Assembly (NCBI GenBank): GCA_016223105.1
Contig: JACRPR010000053.1
Location: forward strand, 1-41,352
Length of the DNA stretch: 41,352 nucleotides
Direction: 5' to 3'
Source: Chloroflexota bacterium
GTDB taxonomy: Bacteria; Chloroflexota; Anaerolineae; UBA4142
Shown here: piece after piece, positions 19,292-37,636 of the stretch
Position numbering within the stretch: the stretch's first letter is position 1
Layout of the letters: every line of letters starts with the position of its first letter
Position numbers and translations under genes: made by a program
The notes under the pieces: model-generated
What the model was told of the DNA's origin: nothing
Database searches by the model: none
The model's input: only the letters and a program-made list of their open reading frames with translations

Positions 19292-19298
19292 GGCAAAT

Positions 19299-19372
19299 GT
19301 CATTGCGAGCGCACTTTGCGAAGCAATCCCCACCGCGCTGATCGGGGATTGCTTCGCTCCGCTCGCAATGAC
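19299..19372. repeat. GTCATTGCGAG-family palindromic repeat
   Basis: gtcattgcgagcgcactttgcgaagcaatcccc ... ggggattgcttcgctccgctcgcaatgac. Confidence 0.9.
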
Positions 19373-19385
19373 AGAATGAAAAAAT

Positions 19386-31441: not shown

Positions 31442-31471
31442 ATTTTAGCACAAGATTGCTCGATTGGTCAA
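31442..31471 (-). promoter_or_regulatory. sigma70-like promoter of the S41 peptidase gene
   Basis: Minus strand TTGACC - 18 bp - TAAAAT. Confidence 0.65.
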
Positions 31472-32398
31472 TCCTCTGTCGCGCCACGATAGTTGAAGGC
31501 GGTGCGGTGCGCCTCTTTGCGTTGCGAACGCGTGGCGCAACGAGTGCGGCGTTAATGTGATTTCAATCCCGGCTTGTTGCGCGAGATCGTTAAACATCAA
31601 ACGCACACTGTCGGTAGTTATTGGTAGAACATTTGTACTTGCGCGCCGGTCATGGCGCGCGAACAATGGCAGTTGATACAACGCGCGACCTTTCGCGCCG
31701 TCCGCGCGTTCTTTGAGATACGTTTGGATCGCGTTCCACGCGGGATCGTCAAAGTACACGATGCGTTGCTTGTTGCCTTTGCCCGTGACGCGCGCAGTGC
31801 GATTGCGATAATCGAGATCGTCGCGCTTGAGCGACACAAGTTCACCGACGCGCATCCCGGACGCGCGCAATGCTTCGAGCATCGCGATATTCCGCAGGCG
31901 CGCAAGATCAAGACGCGGTTTCTTGGGATCGGATTTGATCGCGCGCGCGGCGCGGAGCAGGGCGGTGATCGCTTCGTCGGGCGGCAGTTTCGGCAGAGGG
32001 CGATGATAGCCGCGTCGATATTTTTTGAGCGCGTCGCGCATCCGTTCGAGCTCGGACGCGGGGAGATCGATCAGTTTCTCACGCAAGAGGTAATTGTAGA
32101 ATTGCGAGAGCGTTGAGAGATACGTTCGCAGAGTCGCTTTGGCGATGCCGCGTTCTTCGCTGAGCCAGCGCGCACATTCAAGCACGTCGTCAACATTCAA
32201 TCGCTTGACCGCGTCGGTAGGGGAGCGTTTGGTGTGCGCGAGAAATTCGCGCCAGCGTTCGAGTCCTTGCGCGTACGTCTCGACCGTGCGCGGCGATTGA
32301 CCGACCGCGAGGTCGCGCAAATAATTTTGGATTGCGTTCTCGATAGACGCCGGGCGTGTCGAGTCGTGCGGTGGGGGAGTTGCACGCGGGTTCTTCAA
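31445..32398 (-). pseudogene. Tyrosine recombinase (XerC/D-like) lacking its C-terminal catalytic segment
   Basis: Arg motif ALRASGMRVGELVSL, TGKGNKQR, HSLRHAFAT present; no LGH block or catalytic Tyr before the stop. Confidence 0.8.
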
Positions 32399-32792: not shown

Positions 32793-32964
32793 TCGCGCCC
32801 CTGCTGTTGCGATCAAAGAATAACTTGCCGACTGTTACCCTGAGCGAAGCGAAGGGTCTCGCGCGCTACGAATCGCCTGCGTGCGCCGGCCGGTTGCGAG
32901 ACATTCGTTTATTCGTTGCGCGAAGCGATTCGTTGACGTATAAAATAGAATTTTTGTTCTAGTT

Positions 32965-32994
32965 GGAATTTTGCCGCCGAGTGTGTTATACTGA
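32965..32994 (+). promoter_or_regulatory. Putative promoter of the CpXC-TPR-CHAT gene
   Basis: TTGGAA - 18 bp - TATACT upstream of ATG 33031. Confidence 0.5.
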
Positions 32995-34484
32995 AATTAA
33001 ATCTTTACCGGCGCGAACGAGGAGCCCCCAATGGCAACATCGTTTTCCCAGCGCGTTGATCTGAATTGCCCGCAATGCACTACCCCATTTTCAGCCGAGG
33101 TCTGGCTGATTGTGGATTTGCTCGAACGCCCCGATTTGGCGGCGCAGTGTCGCGCCGGAAAAATCCGCGCGGTTGTTTGTCCCCAGGGGCACGCCGGCAC
33201 ACTTGCCGCGCCTCTGCTCGTTCACGACCCGGCGCGCCGCAAATTGTTGTTGACGCTCCCGCCGAATGTCCCGGAAAACGACGCGCGCCAAATCAACGCG
33301 CAACTCGTCGCGCAGTTGCGCCAAACACTTCCCACCGGCTTGCCGCTCGAGTACTTGAACGAGACCCAGGTTGTGCCGCTCGAACTCCTCCCCGCCGCGC
33401 TGTCCGACGATCCCGATACCGCGCTTGCCGAACAACTCGCGCGCGCGATGCCGCCGTTGATGCGGACGCTCCAAGAATTTATCCAAGCCAAATCCTGGGA
33501 TGAATCCAAAAAGATTCTTGCCGCGCACCCGGAATTATTGACAGACGACGCCGACCTGTTGCTGGCGCAAATGATTGACGCGGCGCGCGAACACGCTCCG
33601 CGGGACGCGAACGCGGAAAAGATTTTTGCGGATCACCGCGAATTATTGCAACACGCGCGCCGCGACGGCATTGACGCCGCGTTTGCCGCGCACCACCGCC
33701 CTGCCCCGAACCAACCGGGCTTGCCGCCCGAATTGCAGGCGCGCTTGCGCGAGTTGAACATTCAATCACCCGAAGACCTGGAACGCGTAATGCGCGAGCA
33801 TCCCGACCTGGCAGAGCAATTGCAACGCGAACTCGCCCGCGCAAATCCGATGATTGCCGCGCTCGAAGCAATAGTGCAAGCCGATTCTCCGCAAGCCGTG
33901 TTGCGCGCCGCGCGCGTGTATCCGGTTTTGCTGGAGGATGCAGGACTGAACGCGCTTCGCGACGCGATTGCGAACGCGCGCCAACAAAATCAAGAACCAA
34001 TGGCAAAACACCTGGAAGCGCGCTTGAACACCCTGCTCCAATTCAAAAACAGCGGAATGTCGTTGAACGATTTAGCGCAGATGGACAATGTAACACAGGC
34101 ATTAGACCCAGCAACCGCCGCCGCGTTGCAAGAGTTGGTTCAACAAGGCGCGGACACGCCGGAGAAATTAGAACAAGCACTGCGCGACCACCCCGACCTG
34201 CGCGAAAAATTGGAACGCGCAACCCGCCGCGCCGCGCCGAGCGGACTGGGCGAAATTCCCGCCGACATCCGCCCACTGTTGGAAGAAATGTCCCGACTGA
34301 ACCGGCTATCCGAAATGCCGCGCAAAATTGAACTGTGCGAGCAAGCGCTAGGTCTTGTACGGCGTCAAGATAACCCAACGATATGGGCAGGATTGCAAGG
34401 TGAACTTGCAAACGCATTGAATCAAAGCCCACACGGTAGTCGTGCTGATAACTTGGAACGCGCCATCGAATGCTATGAAAATAT

Positions 34485-35235
34485 CGCATCCGTTTTCACG
34501 CGCGAGCAATTTCCCGAACAATGGGCGACCACGCAGAACAATTTGGCGAACGCGTACTCGGATCGGATTCGCGGCGAACGCGCAGAGAACCTCGAGCGCG
34601 CCATCGCGCATTACGACAACGCGTTAGCGGTTTATACGCGCGAGCAATTTCCCGAACAATGGGCGACCACACAGAACAATTTGGCGAACGCGTACTCGGA
34701 TCGGATTCGCGGCGAACGCGCAGAGAACCTCGAGCGCGCCATCGCGCATTACGACAACGCGTTAGCGGTTTATCGAACGCGCGGAGAACCTCGAGCGCGC
34801 CATCGCGCATTACGACAACGCGTTAGCGGTTTATACGCGCGAGCAATTTCCGACCGATTGGGCAATGACGCAGAACAATTTGGCGAACGCGTACAAAAAT
34901 CGGATTCGCGGCGAACGCGCAGAGAACCTCGAGCGCGCCATCGCGCATTACGACAACGCGTTAGCGGTTTATACGCGCGCGCAATTTCCCGAACAATGGG
35001 CGACCACGCAGAACAATTTGGCGACCGCGTACAACAATCGGATTCGCGGCGAACGCGCGGAGAACCTCGAGCGCGCCATCGCGCATTACGACAACGCGTT
35101 AGCGGTTTATACGCGCGCGCAATTTCCGACCGATTGGGCAATGACGCAGAACAATTTGGCGACCGCGTATAAGAATCGGATTCGGGGCGAACGCGCGGAG
35201 AATCTCGAGCGCGCGATCGGGCATTACGAAAACGC
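34485..35235 (+). repeat. 138-bp coding tandem repeat (46-aa TPR units)
   Basis: gttagcggtttat recurs at 34623, 34761, 34822, 34960, 35098: spacings 138, 61, 138, 138. Confidence 0.92.
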
Positions 35236-35467
35236 GTTACAAATTCACACGCCGCAGGCATACCCCAGCGACGCGCGCAAGACCGCGCGCAACCTCGGCA
35301 ACTTGTACACCGAAATCCAAAACTGGCAGGGCGCGCGTTCCGCGTTTGCCGTCGCGCTGACCGCCGCCGAACAACTCTTTCGCACTGCGGTTGACCCCAC
35401 CACGCAACGCGACGAAGCCGAACAACTCGCTGAACTCTACGACCGCGATATTTACGCGTGCGTCAAT

Positions 35468-35553
35468 GTCATTGCGAGCGAAGCGAAGCAATCCCCGACC
35501 ACTGAATTGGGGATTGCTTCGCAAACACCGCTCGCAATGACACTCGCAATGAC
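35468..35553. repeat. GTCATTGCGAG-family palindromic repeat within the TPR-CHAT ORF
   Basis: gtcattgcgagcgaagcgaagcaatcccc...ggggattgcttcgcaaacaccgctcgcaatgac, read as NVIASEAKQSPTTELGIASQTPLAMTLAMT. Confidence 0.9.
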
Positions 35554-36803
35554 AAGTGTCGCGCGGGATGCGCTTGTCGCCGCCGAAGCCGCGCGGTCGC
35601 GCGCGTTCCTCAAGCAGATGGGCTTGGGTGATTATGCCGCGCCCGCCGCGCTTCCCACCGCCCTGCGCGAACGCGAAGCGCGTCTGCGCGACGAGTTTCG
35701 CCGCAACGAAGCCGCGCTTGCCAGCGTCAACACGCGCGCCGAACGCGCGAGTGAGGTCGAGCGCACGCTCGTCGCGCAACGCGGCAAACTGACCCAGGAT
35801 ATTGAACAGGTATGGGAGCAAATGCTTCAAGCCACGCCCGCCGCACGCGAGTACGTCGCGCTTCGGCGCGGCACCACGCCCACCTGGGACGATCTGCAAA
35901 CACTCGCGACGCGACTCGGCAAAGACACCGCGCTCGTCGAATTTCACAATCTCGCCGACCAAATCATCGCGCTCGTGTGGCGCGCGGACTGGGTCGCGCC
36001 ACAGTTGATCGCCATCCCGCTGAATCGCGCCCGCTTGCTCAATCGCTATCTCTTGCCATACGAGCAAGAAGTGATCAACCACAAACAGCATACCGAGGTT
36101 GCCCGCCGCGAAACGCACAACGATTGGCTCGCGCTCGGCGACGAATTGCTCGCGCCGCTCGAACCCGCGCTCGGCGATGCGTCGCTCGTCTATTTCATCC
36201 CGCACGGTTATTTGCACATCTTGCCCCTGCAGCCGCGCTTGTGATGGGTGAAGTGTTTATCGAGGAAGCGATTGAACTCGCCAAGTATTTTGGTGTGTCG
36301 CCATTCGTAAACACGCAAGCCACGCGCGCCGCGCTCGCGCAGAACGCGCCGCACAGCAAAATTATTCATCTCTCCTGTCACGGCGCGTTCAACGCGGACG
36401 ATCCGCTCGCGTCCGCGGTTGTGCTCGCGGATGGCAATTACACCGCGCGCGAGTGGATGCGCTTGGAACTCGATGCCGACCTGGTCACGTTGAGCGCGTG
36501 TCAGTTGGCGTTCAGCGAAACAAATCGCGGCGATGATTTGGTTGGAATGGCGCGCGCGCTGTTTTACGCCGGCGCGTCGTCGCTCTTGCTCGCGCTCTGG
36601 TCGGTGCCCGCCGGCACAACGAAAGATTGGATGCTCGATTTTTATTCGCGCGTGTGGCGCAACGGCGCGAAACACCAAACGCTCGCGCACGCGCATCGCG
36701 ACGCCACGCTCGAATTGATGCGCGCGCATCCAAACGCTCCGCACATCTCGGCGCCGTTTGTGTTGATGGGGAATTGGGAGTAACGCAAATTTCTAATTTG
36801 CGA

Positions 36804-36854
36804 GTGGGGCGAGCTTTCTAGCCCGACTCAAGCGGCTTGGAAAAGCCGCACCAC
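36804..36854. repeat. Y-shaped inverted-repeat element, second instance
   Basis: GTGG [GGGC...GCCC] [GCGGCTTggaaAAGCCGC] CCAC. Confidence 0.65.
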
Positions 36855-36869
36855 ATTCGAGGAGACAAG

Positions 36870-37586
36870 ATGCCCGACGAAATTTGGTACGCCGATGATT
36901 TGCTACCGACTGAAAATGCCGTGCAAGAAATTGCGAAAGCGACGACGCGCTCCATCGAGAATGTGCAGGCGGAGGTGAACGCCGAAGTGCGCGGCAAGGT
37001 GTTGATCAATTTGCCGGACTGGGCGCGCGTAACGGACACCGCGAACCTGCTCACGTCGAATCGCGCCGCCGATTTTTATCGCGTGCGACTCGGTTTTCAA
37101 TTCGAGTTGACGCCCGCCGCGCAACACGCGCACGCGCAATTTGTGTACGCGGTCTGCGCCGCGCAGTTGCGGAGCGCGACGGACAGCGCAGAGCAACCGC
37201 GCGTGTACGAAATGTACCCGCGCGATTATTACGAAAAGGACAAACCGCCGACCGCGACGTTCGAACTGGGTCCCGAAATCACGCTGGACAAGGTCGGCGC
37301 ATCGCTCGGCAAAATCAGCGGCGATATCGCGCTGGGACAACTGGAGCCGGTCGTCGTCGGTTTTCCCGGCGCGGAGGAACGCGCGCCGCGCTGGGAATTG
37401 CGTCCGCAAAGCAAAACGCTGATCGGCATCCGTTACTTGTGGTTTCTGCTCCAAGTGCCGCACACCTGCCAGGGCGCGCGCCTCGCCGTGCGCGCCGACG
37501 GCGACATTCAAACGCGTCTGGGGCGGATTGCGATCGGACCGAAAGAACGCGTGCTGGACAAGCGTCCCAGTGTGTTGATTCGATAA
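36870..37586 (+). CDS. Uncharacterised protein immediately downstream of TPR-CHAT
   Basis: MPDEIWYADDLLPTENAVQEIAKATTRSIENVQAEVNAEVRGKVLINLPDWARVTDTANLL...; GGAG RBS; no family recognised. Confidence 0.75.
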   Translation: MPDEIWYADDLLPTENAVQEIAKATTRSIENVQAEVNAEVRGKVLINLPDWARVTDTANLLTSNRAADFYRVRLGFQFELTPAAQHAHAQFVYAVCAAQLRSATDSAEQPRVYEMYPRDYYEKDKPPTATFELGPEITLDKVGASLGKISGDIALGQLEPVVVGFPGAEERAPRWELRPQSKTLIGIRYLWFLLQVPHTCQGARLAVRADGDIQTRLGRIAIGPKERVLDKRPSVLIR

Positions 37587-37594
37587 AAAAACTA

Positions 37595-37630
37595 AAAACC
37601 CGAAGGGTCTCGCAGACCCTTCGGGTTTCT
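37595..37630. terminator. Bidirectional hairpin terminator between convergent genes
   Basis: AAACCCGAAGGGTCTcgcAGACCCTTCGGGTTT. Confidence 0.75.
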
Positions 37631-37636
37631 AGTTGA

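Follow-up and report, generated by a model that had tools for sequence, protein, structure and literature searches.

Relationship to Described Protease and Conflict Systems

The closest described counterpart of the locus reported here is Craspase, the type III-E CRISPR assembly containing Csx29 and Csx30 (PMC10028731, PMC9729208), in which the TPR-CHAT protease Csx29 cleaves the linked protein Csx30 upon binding of target RNA by Cas7-11 (PMC10028731). The window, a stretch of 41,352 nucleotides comprising positions 1 to 41,352 of contig JACRPR010000053.1 from an Anaerolineae bacterium of the phylum Chloroflexota (assembly GCA_016223105.1), similarly carries a gene for a TPR-CHAT protease with a His/Cys dyad and, next to it, a gene for a linked partner protein, designated P. 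In the PDB, the CHAT part has no relatives other than Csx29/Craspase structures (E about 1e-4). Unlike Csx29, which docks on Cas7-11, the window protease possesses a CpXC module and a helical segment at its N-terminus; unlike the Craspase partner, P matches no PDB chain. The initial annotation had seen neither CRISPR nor gRAMP, and this agrees with our results: no Cas7-11-like gene or other CRISPR effector was recognized beside the loci read, and the window CHAT is not a Csx29, scoring 26 bits against the Csx29 model NF041237 of NCBIfam (cut-off 300).

Bacterial gasdermin operons pair a gene for a caspase-like protease with a small gene, a possible substrate. The window resembles them in having a protease gene beside a small candidate-substrate gene; however, P lacks both a profile match to solved structures and a hydrophobic segment.

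NTP-dependent conflict systems of multicellular bacteria, which are networks built from STAND, caspase, TCAD and EAD components (PMC7159879, PMC8195603), share with our loci their occurrence in Chloroflexota and the exchangeability of receptor and effector parts. Sister CpXC loci contain an NB-ARC NTPase together with TCAD2, and remote P genes lie beside CHAT-STAND genes. In contrast to these systems, the P-linked clade has no NTPase switch and no EAD/TCAD adaptor, both being present in the sister loci L086 and L090, and P occurs in no family library; CpXC is not mentioned in PMC7159879. CHAT/STAND sensors diversified by DGR (PMC10907252) likewise place CHAT in a putative sensor-effector protein. 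Unlike in these sensors, neither a reverse transcriptase nor a variable lectin domain was noticed here, and the variable part is the TPR array.

Neither P nor the P-linked CHATs received a convincing match in PADLOC. In the loci read, the flanking genes are for the most part ordinary chromosomal ones and not those of defense islands, and no enrichment of known defense genes was seen on inspection.

Organization of the Locus

On the forward strand, the CpXC zinc module is followed by the helical segment, the TPR array, a linker, the CHAT domain and finally P. The zinc module (CPQC ... CPQGH; 33061–33294) matches Pfam family PF14353 with 41 bits against a cut-off of 25.4 (E = 2.3e-10). It is the only CpXC in its genome, and its residues Cys13, Cys16 and Cys50 are invariant in 12 relatives. 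HPDL/HPELL motifs are repeated along the helical segment, and the TPR array (34498–35239) consists of 138-bp units, equivalent to 46 aa, with TPR_12 repeats above the Pfam cut-off; the first two units are 99% identical. The C-terminal half of CHAT matches PF12770 with 110 bits (cut-off 24; E = 2.4e-31), the CHATs of relatives scoring 154–195 bits, and includes the codons for the catalytic His (LSCHG; 36379–36381) and Cys (LSACQ; 36499–36501). Gene P (36870–37586) is intact, encodes 238 aa, starts 86 bp 3′ of the CHAT stop and is preceded by a good ribosome-binding site. Pfam matches and the 138-bp units bear out the domain architecture given in the initial annotation, and the position, length and strand of the downstream reading frame are likewise as described there.

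A sigma-70-like promoter match (TTGGAA-18-TATACT; 32963–32992, forward strand) is located 38 bp before the start codon of the CpXC-TPR-CHAT gene; it is weak, as the region holds two such matches versus 1.2 expected by chance. A long palindrome with a T-run follows P (37590–37634). Its best score is on the reverse strand, at the end of a convergent IMP dehydrogenase gene, and it may serve both this gene and P. An Rfam search of the region gave no match. Upstream of the locus, a tyrosine recombinase-like ORF (31445–32398) appears frame-shifted at its C-terminal end.

Frame Breaks in the Protease Gene

The CpXC-TPR-CHAT gene of the window is split over three frames (ORFs 33031–35172, 34865–36244 and 35812–36783, all on the forward strand). 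According to ORF calls and Pfam, the first piece (33031–34773) encodes CpXC, the helical repeats and the first TPR units; the second (34865–36244) encodes the remaining TPR array, the linker and the N-terminal CHAT part; the third (36241–36783), recognized by PF12770, encodes the C-terminal half of CHAT with His and Cys. The first break lies at about 34773/34774 within the TPR array, where a repeated, out-of-phase 61-bp piece of a TPR unit (34774–34834) shifts the frame. A stop codon at 36242–36244 constitutes the second break, and the window copy contains no complete open CHAT domain: compared with intact relatives, about 54 CHAT-core residues are absent, some 47 at the stop and some 7 further on. 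As read, this copy can encode no intact protease as one protein. The catalytic His and Cys, initially annotated as intact, are indeed both present as codons, but owing to the frame breaks and the stop at 36242 they do not belong to a translatable protein.

The TPR-CHAT linker carries an in-frame insertion of a 76-bp dispersed palindromic repeat that recurs at about 40 further sites of the genome (35467–35542, forward strand). A second window copy of this REP/MITE-like element is located at 19298–19373.

Because the three frame pieces contain no additional stops, the damage is either recent or an assembly fault, and the protease gene is probably non-functional, or else mis-assembled. An intact locus in the organism, with the frame changes being assembly errors in a repetitive region, would be consistent with the lack of further stops, with the near identity of the 138-bp units (99%) and with the contigs of several relatives that end within the TPR array (L014, L067, L068, L072 and L073). 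We nevertheless consider this explanation rather unlikely, as the second lesion, with its loss of conserved CHAT-core residues, lies outside the repeats, and a collapse of identical repeats should preserve the 138-bp phase.

Of the five loci read over the whole length from CpXC to CHAT, three (the window, L060 and L062, representing three families of the class) show frame changes in the TPR array, for which slippage, decay or an assembly fault may be responsible. The other two are intact through CpXC-TPR-CHAT and encode proteins of 1154 aa (L017) and 1308 aa (L063). Such recurrence, along with the high unit identity within the array, could hint at slippage-driven phase variation acting as a biological on/off switch of the receptor. 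However, all three affected loci come from draft assemblies and their lesions differ in kind, and the window has additionally suffered a CHAT-core deletion that slippage could not reverse; we regard a switch of this type as very improbable. The reading we favor, with some confidence, is that the window contains a damaged copy of a two-gene module conserved in Anaerolineae, comprising a receptor-protease and P, the latter being acted on by CHAT.

Conservation of the P-CHAT Pair

Homologs of P were found in six near relatives and in eight further Anaerolineae genomes, and a profile search of the class matched 15 of 397 genomes. Twelve closer members, the window included, were compared (L014, L015, L016, L017, L018, L019, L059, L060, L061, L062 and L063 being the others). 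In each of these 12 Anaerolineae genomes, a TPR-CHAT gene lies directly upstream of P on the same strand; the initial annotation had named a partner not conserved beside CHAT homologs as grounds for refutation, and the result thus speaks for its proposal. The distance between the two genes ranges from an overlap (L063) through 3–4 bp (L059, L061 and L062), making four pairs within about 4 bp or overlapping, and 34 bp (L017) to about 560 bp (L016), the remaining gaps being about 85–180 bp. In some genomes P and the CpXC end are placed on separate contigs, which break off within the gene and in most cases within the TPR array.

About ten different surroundings are represented among the 12 loci. 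The flanking genes include those for IMP dehydrogenase, a dioxygenase, a histidine kinase and a phosphomutase-like enzyme, as well as ilvD, and they are shared only by L018 and L019, which belong to one genus. As the flanks otherwise differ between loci, only the P-CHAT pair is conserved.

A tree comparing the P-linked CHATs with other CpXC-CHATs and with the other CHATs of the window genome united the former in a single clade (support 95/98; no shuffle gave a value as low). The three other CHAT genes of the window genome have no P adjacent. Within the P-linked clade the catalytic His is kept in 12 of 12 members and the Cys in 11. A Ser replaces the catalytic Cys (LSASQ) in L014 (CHAT gene 1–1770), whose P-linked CHAT is otherwise intact.

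Adjacency by chance, or through a shared housekeeping context, is refuted by the invariable pairing amid differing flanks and by the correspondence between the CHAT clade and the presence of P; its probability is close to nil. Pairwise identities of P and CHAT correlate with r = 0.77 over 66 pairs, which is supportive only, because shared ancestry alone could yield such a correlation. Of the two, P is the faster-changing sequence, with a mean identity of 45% versus 58% for the CHAT half.

Five remote members (L020, L064, L065, L066 and L095, the last of them found by profile) share about 20% identity with the window P over the aligned parts. The P gene of L065 immediately precedes a gene for a 1407-aa CHAT-AAA/NB-ARC-TPR protein, and that of L095, which belongs to a different class of the phylum, immediately precedes a CHAT-STAND gene. 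L066 has P beside a STAND-TPR gene truncated by the contig end, while the P genes of L020 and L064 are themselves at contig ends. Given L065, L066 and L095 together with the closer loci, P accompanies CHAT or STAND proteins wherever its neighborhood can be judged.

The Wider CpXC-Helical Family

When 397 Anaerolineae genomes were searched with a profile built from the CpXC-helical N-terminus, 273 gave a match; many weaker matches represent a distinct protein of about 450 aa. Seven of the long CpXC proteins read have a CHAT match and lack P. In L081 (4601–5848), L085 (5779–7263) and L089 (5566–7014), the CpXC-CHAT gene precedes a small zinc-ribbon-like gene, after which comes a gene for a membrane protein. 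These membrane proteins of about 300 aa are homologous, with 36–43% identity among themselves, and are candidate membrane effectors. A second CHAT gene is the neighbor in L079 and L092 (39% identical), and in L093 a 278-aa gene is located upstream of the CpXC protein.

Two further loci, L086 (3543–8273) and L090 (3287–7662), have the CpXC-helical N-terminus on an NB-ARC NTPase-TPR protein, as Pfam matches show for L086, with an adjoining TCAD2-like gene. Neither has a CHAT match, and in L086 the NB-ARC NTPase stands in place of CHAT. The TCAD2 neighbor has a Pfam match in L086, and its L090 counterpart is 77% identical to it. This pair of loci appears to represent a receptor branch whose output differs. 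In L069 (7358–8443) and L070 (6123–7262), the CpXC-helical gene stands alone and is accompanied by neither TPR nor CHAT nor P. Both genes adjoin a histidine kinase of the type that also flanks the complete locus in L016, and it looks as if the remainder of the module was lost.

The same N-terminus combined with exchangeable effectors and neighbors is a pattern of bacterial conflict systems (PMC7159879, PMC8195603), of which a constant receptor or protease with exchangeable partners is typical. No description of the CpXC-helical family was found in these two papers, as far as they are searchable, and none of a CpXC-CHAT protein in the literature searched, where co-mentions of both words were unrelated. 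We tentatively suggest, at somewhat less than even confidence, that CpXC-fronted receptors may form an undescribed modular conflict family of Chloroflexota, in which a common CpXC-helical sensor is joined to TPR-CHAT or to an NB-ARC NTPase, either with a swappable partner gene of its own, and P would be the dedicated substrate or effector of one protease branch.

Partner Protein P and Proposed Function of the Module

No match to P was found in Pfam, NCBIfam, PADLOC or PDB, and no homolog in phages, plasmids or viral contigs. The statement that P belongs to no recognized family stands, and a housekeeping family, which was also looked for, did not emerge. Judged by its sequence, P is a new protein family. 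The window P retains every residue invariant among its near relatives. Across 16 P sequences, only P117, W175 and G186 are invariant; no His, Cys, Asp, Glu or Lys is among them, and there is no conserved catalytic residue. No transmembrane or hydrophobic segment was detected in P, and an AlphaFold model built from two sequences had a pLDDT of 32. Since it has neither an invariant acid, base or thiol nor a hydrophobic segment, P is not an obvious enzyme or pore; a role in binding or as a substrate is predicted in preference to one as an enzyme or membrane protein.

The lack of an enzyme signature and of a membrane segment would also suit a regulator, that is, an inhibitor, immunity protein or adaptor bound to TPR/CHAT, with the protease cutting another target in the cell. 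The close coupling of the two genes and the co-variation of P with CHAT are as compatible with a bound regulator as with a substrate, and P also pairs with CHAT-STAND-TPR proteins in reversed gene order. On the other hand, the neighboring position in other CpXC-CHATs is taken by a second CHAT or by a membrane protein, which are more effector-like than regulator-like. We regard a regulatory P as a credible but less probable alternative; the substrate or effector reading is slightly ahead of a bound inhibitor or adaptor because the sister branches have effector-like neighbors.

Following the substrate or effector reading, we hypothesize that the CpXC/TPR part binds a trigger or forms a scaffold, and that trigger binding would switch on the CHAT caspase-like protease. 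P would then be a dedicated soluble partner acted on by CHAT, either as a cleaved substrate or as a released effector. In other CpXC-fronted proteins of this class, the place of P is taken by different partner genes, among them the pair of zinc-ribbon and membrane-protein genes. From the composition of the loci we infer a sensing role for the CpXC/TPR part and conflict or defense as the purpose of the module, while the role of P as CHAT substrate or effector is proposed by analogy with Csx29/Csx30. The CHAT gene and P appear to constitute an undescribed, probably defensive two-gene module.

Both the protein family P and the receptor N-terminus CpXC-helical are newly named here. Most of what is known of TPR-CHAT proteases comes from Craspase, whose partner protein revealed the role of the protease. 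A second, apparently CRISPR-free TPR-CHAT branch with a strictly linked partner of a new family provides concrete pairs for testing substrate, trigger and outcome, and the sister branches with membrane-protein partners add further testable pairs.
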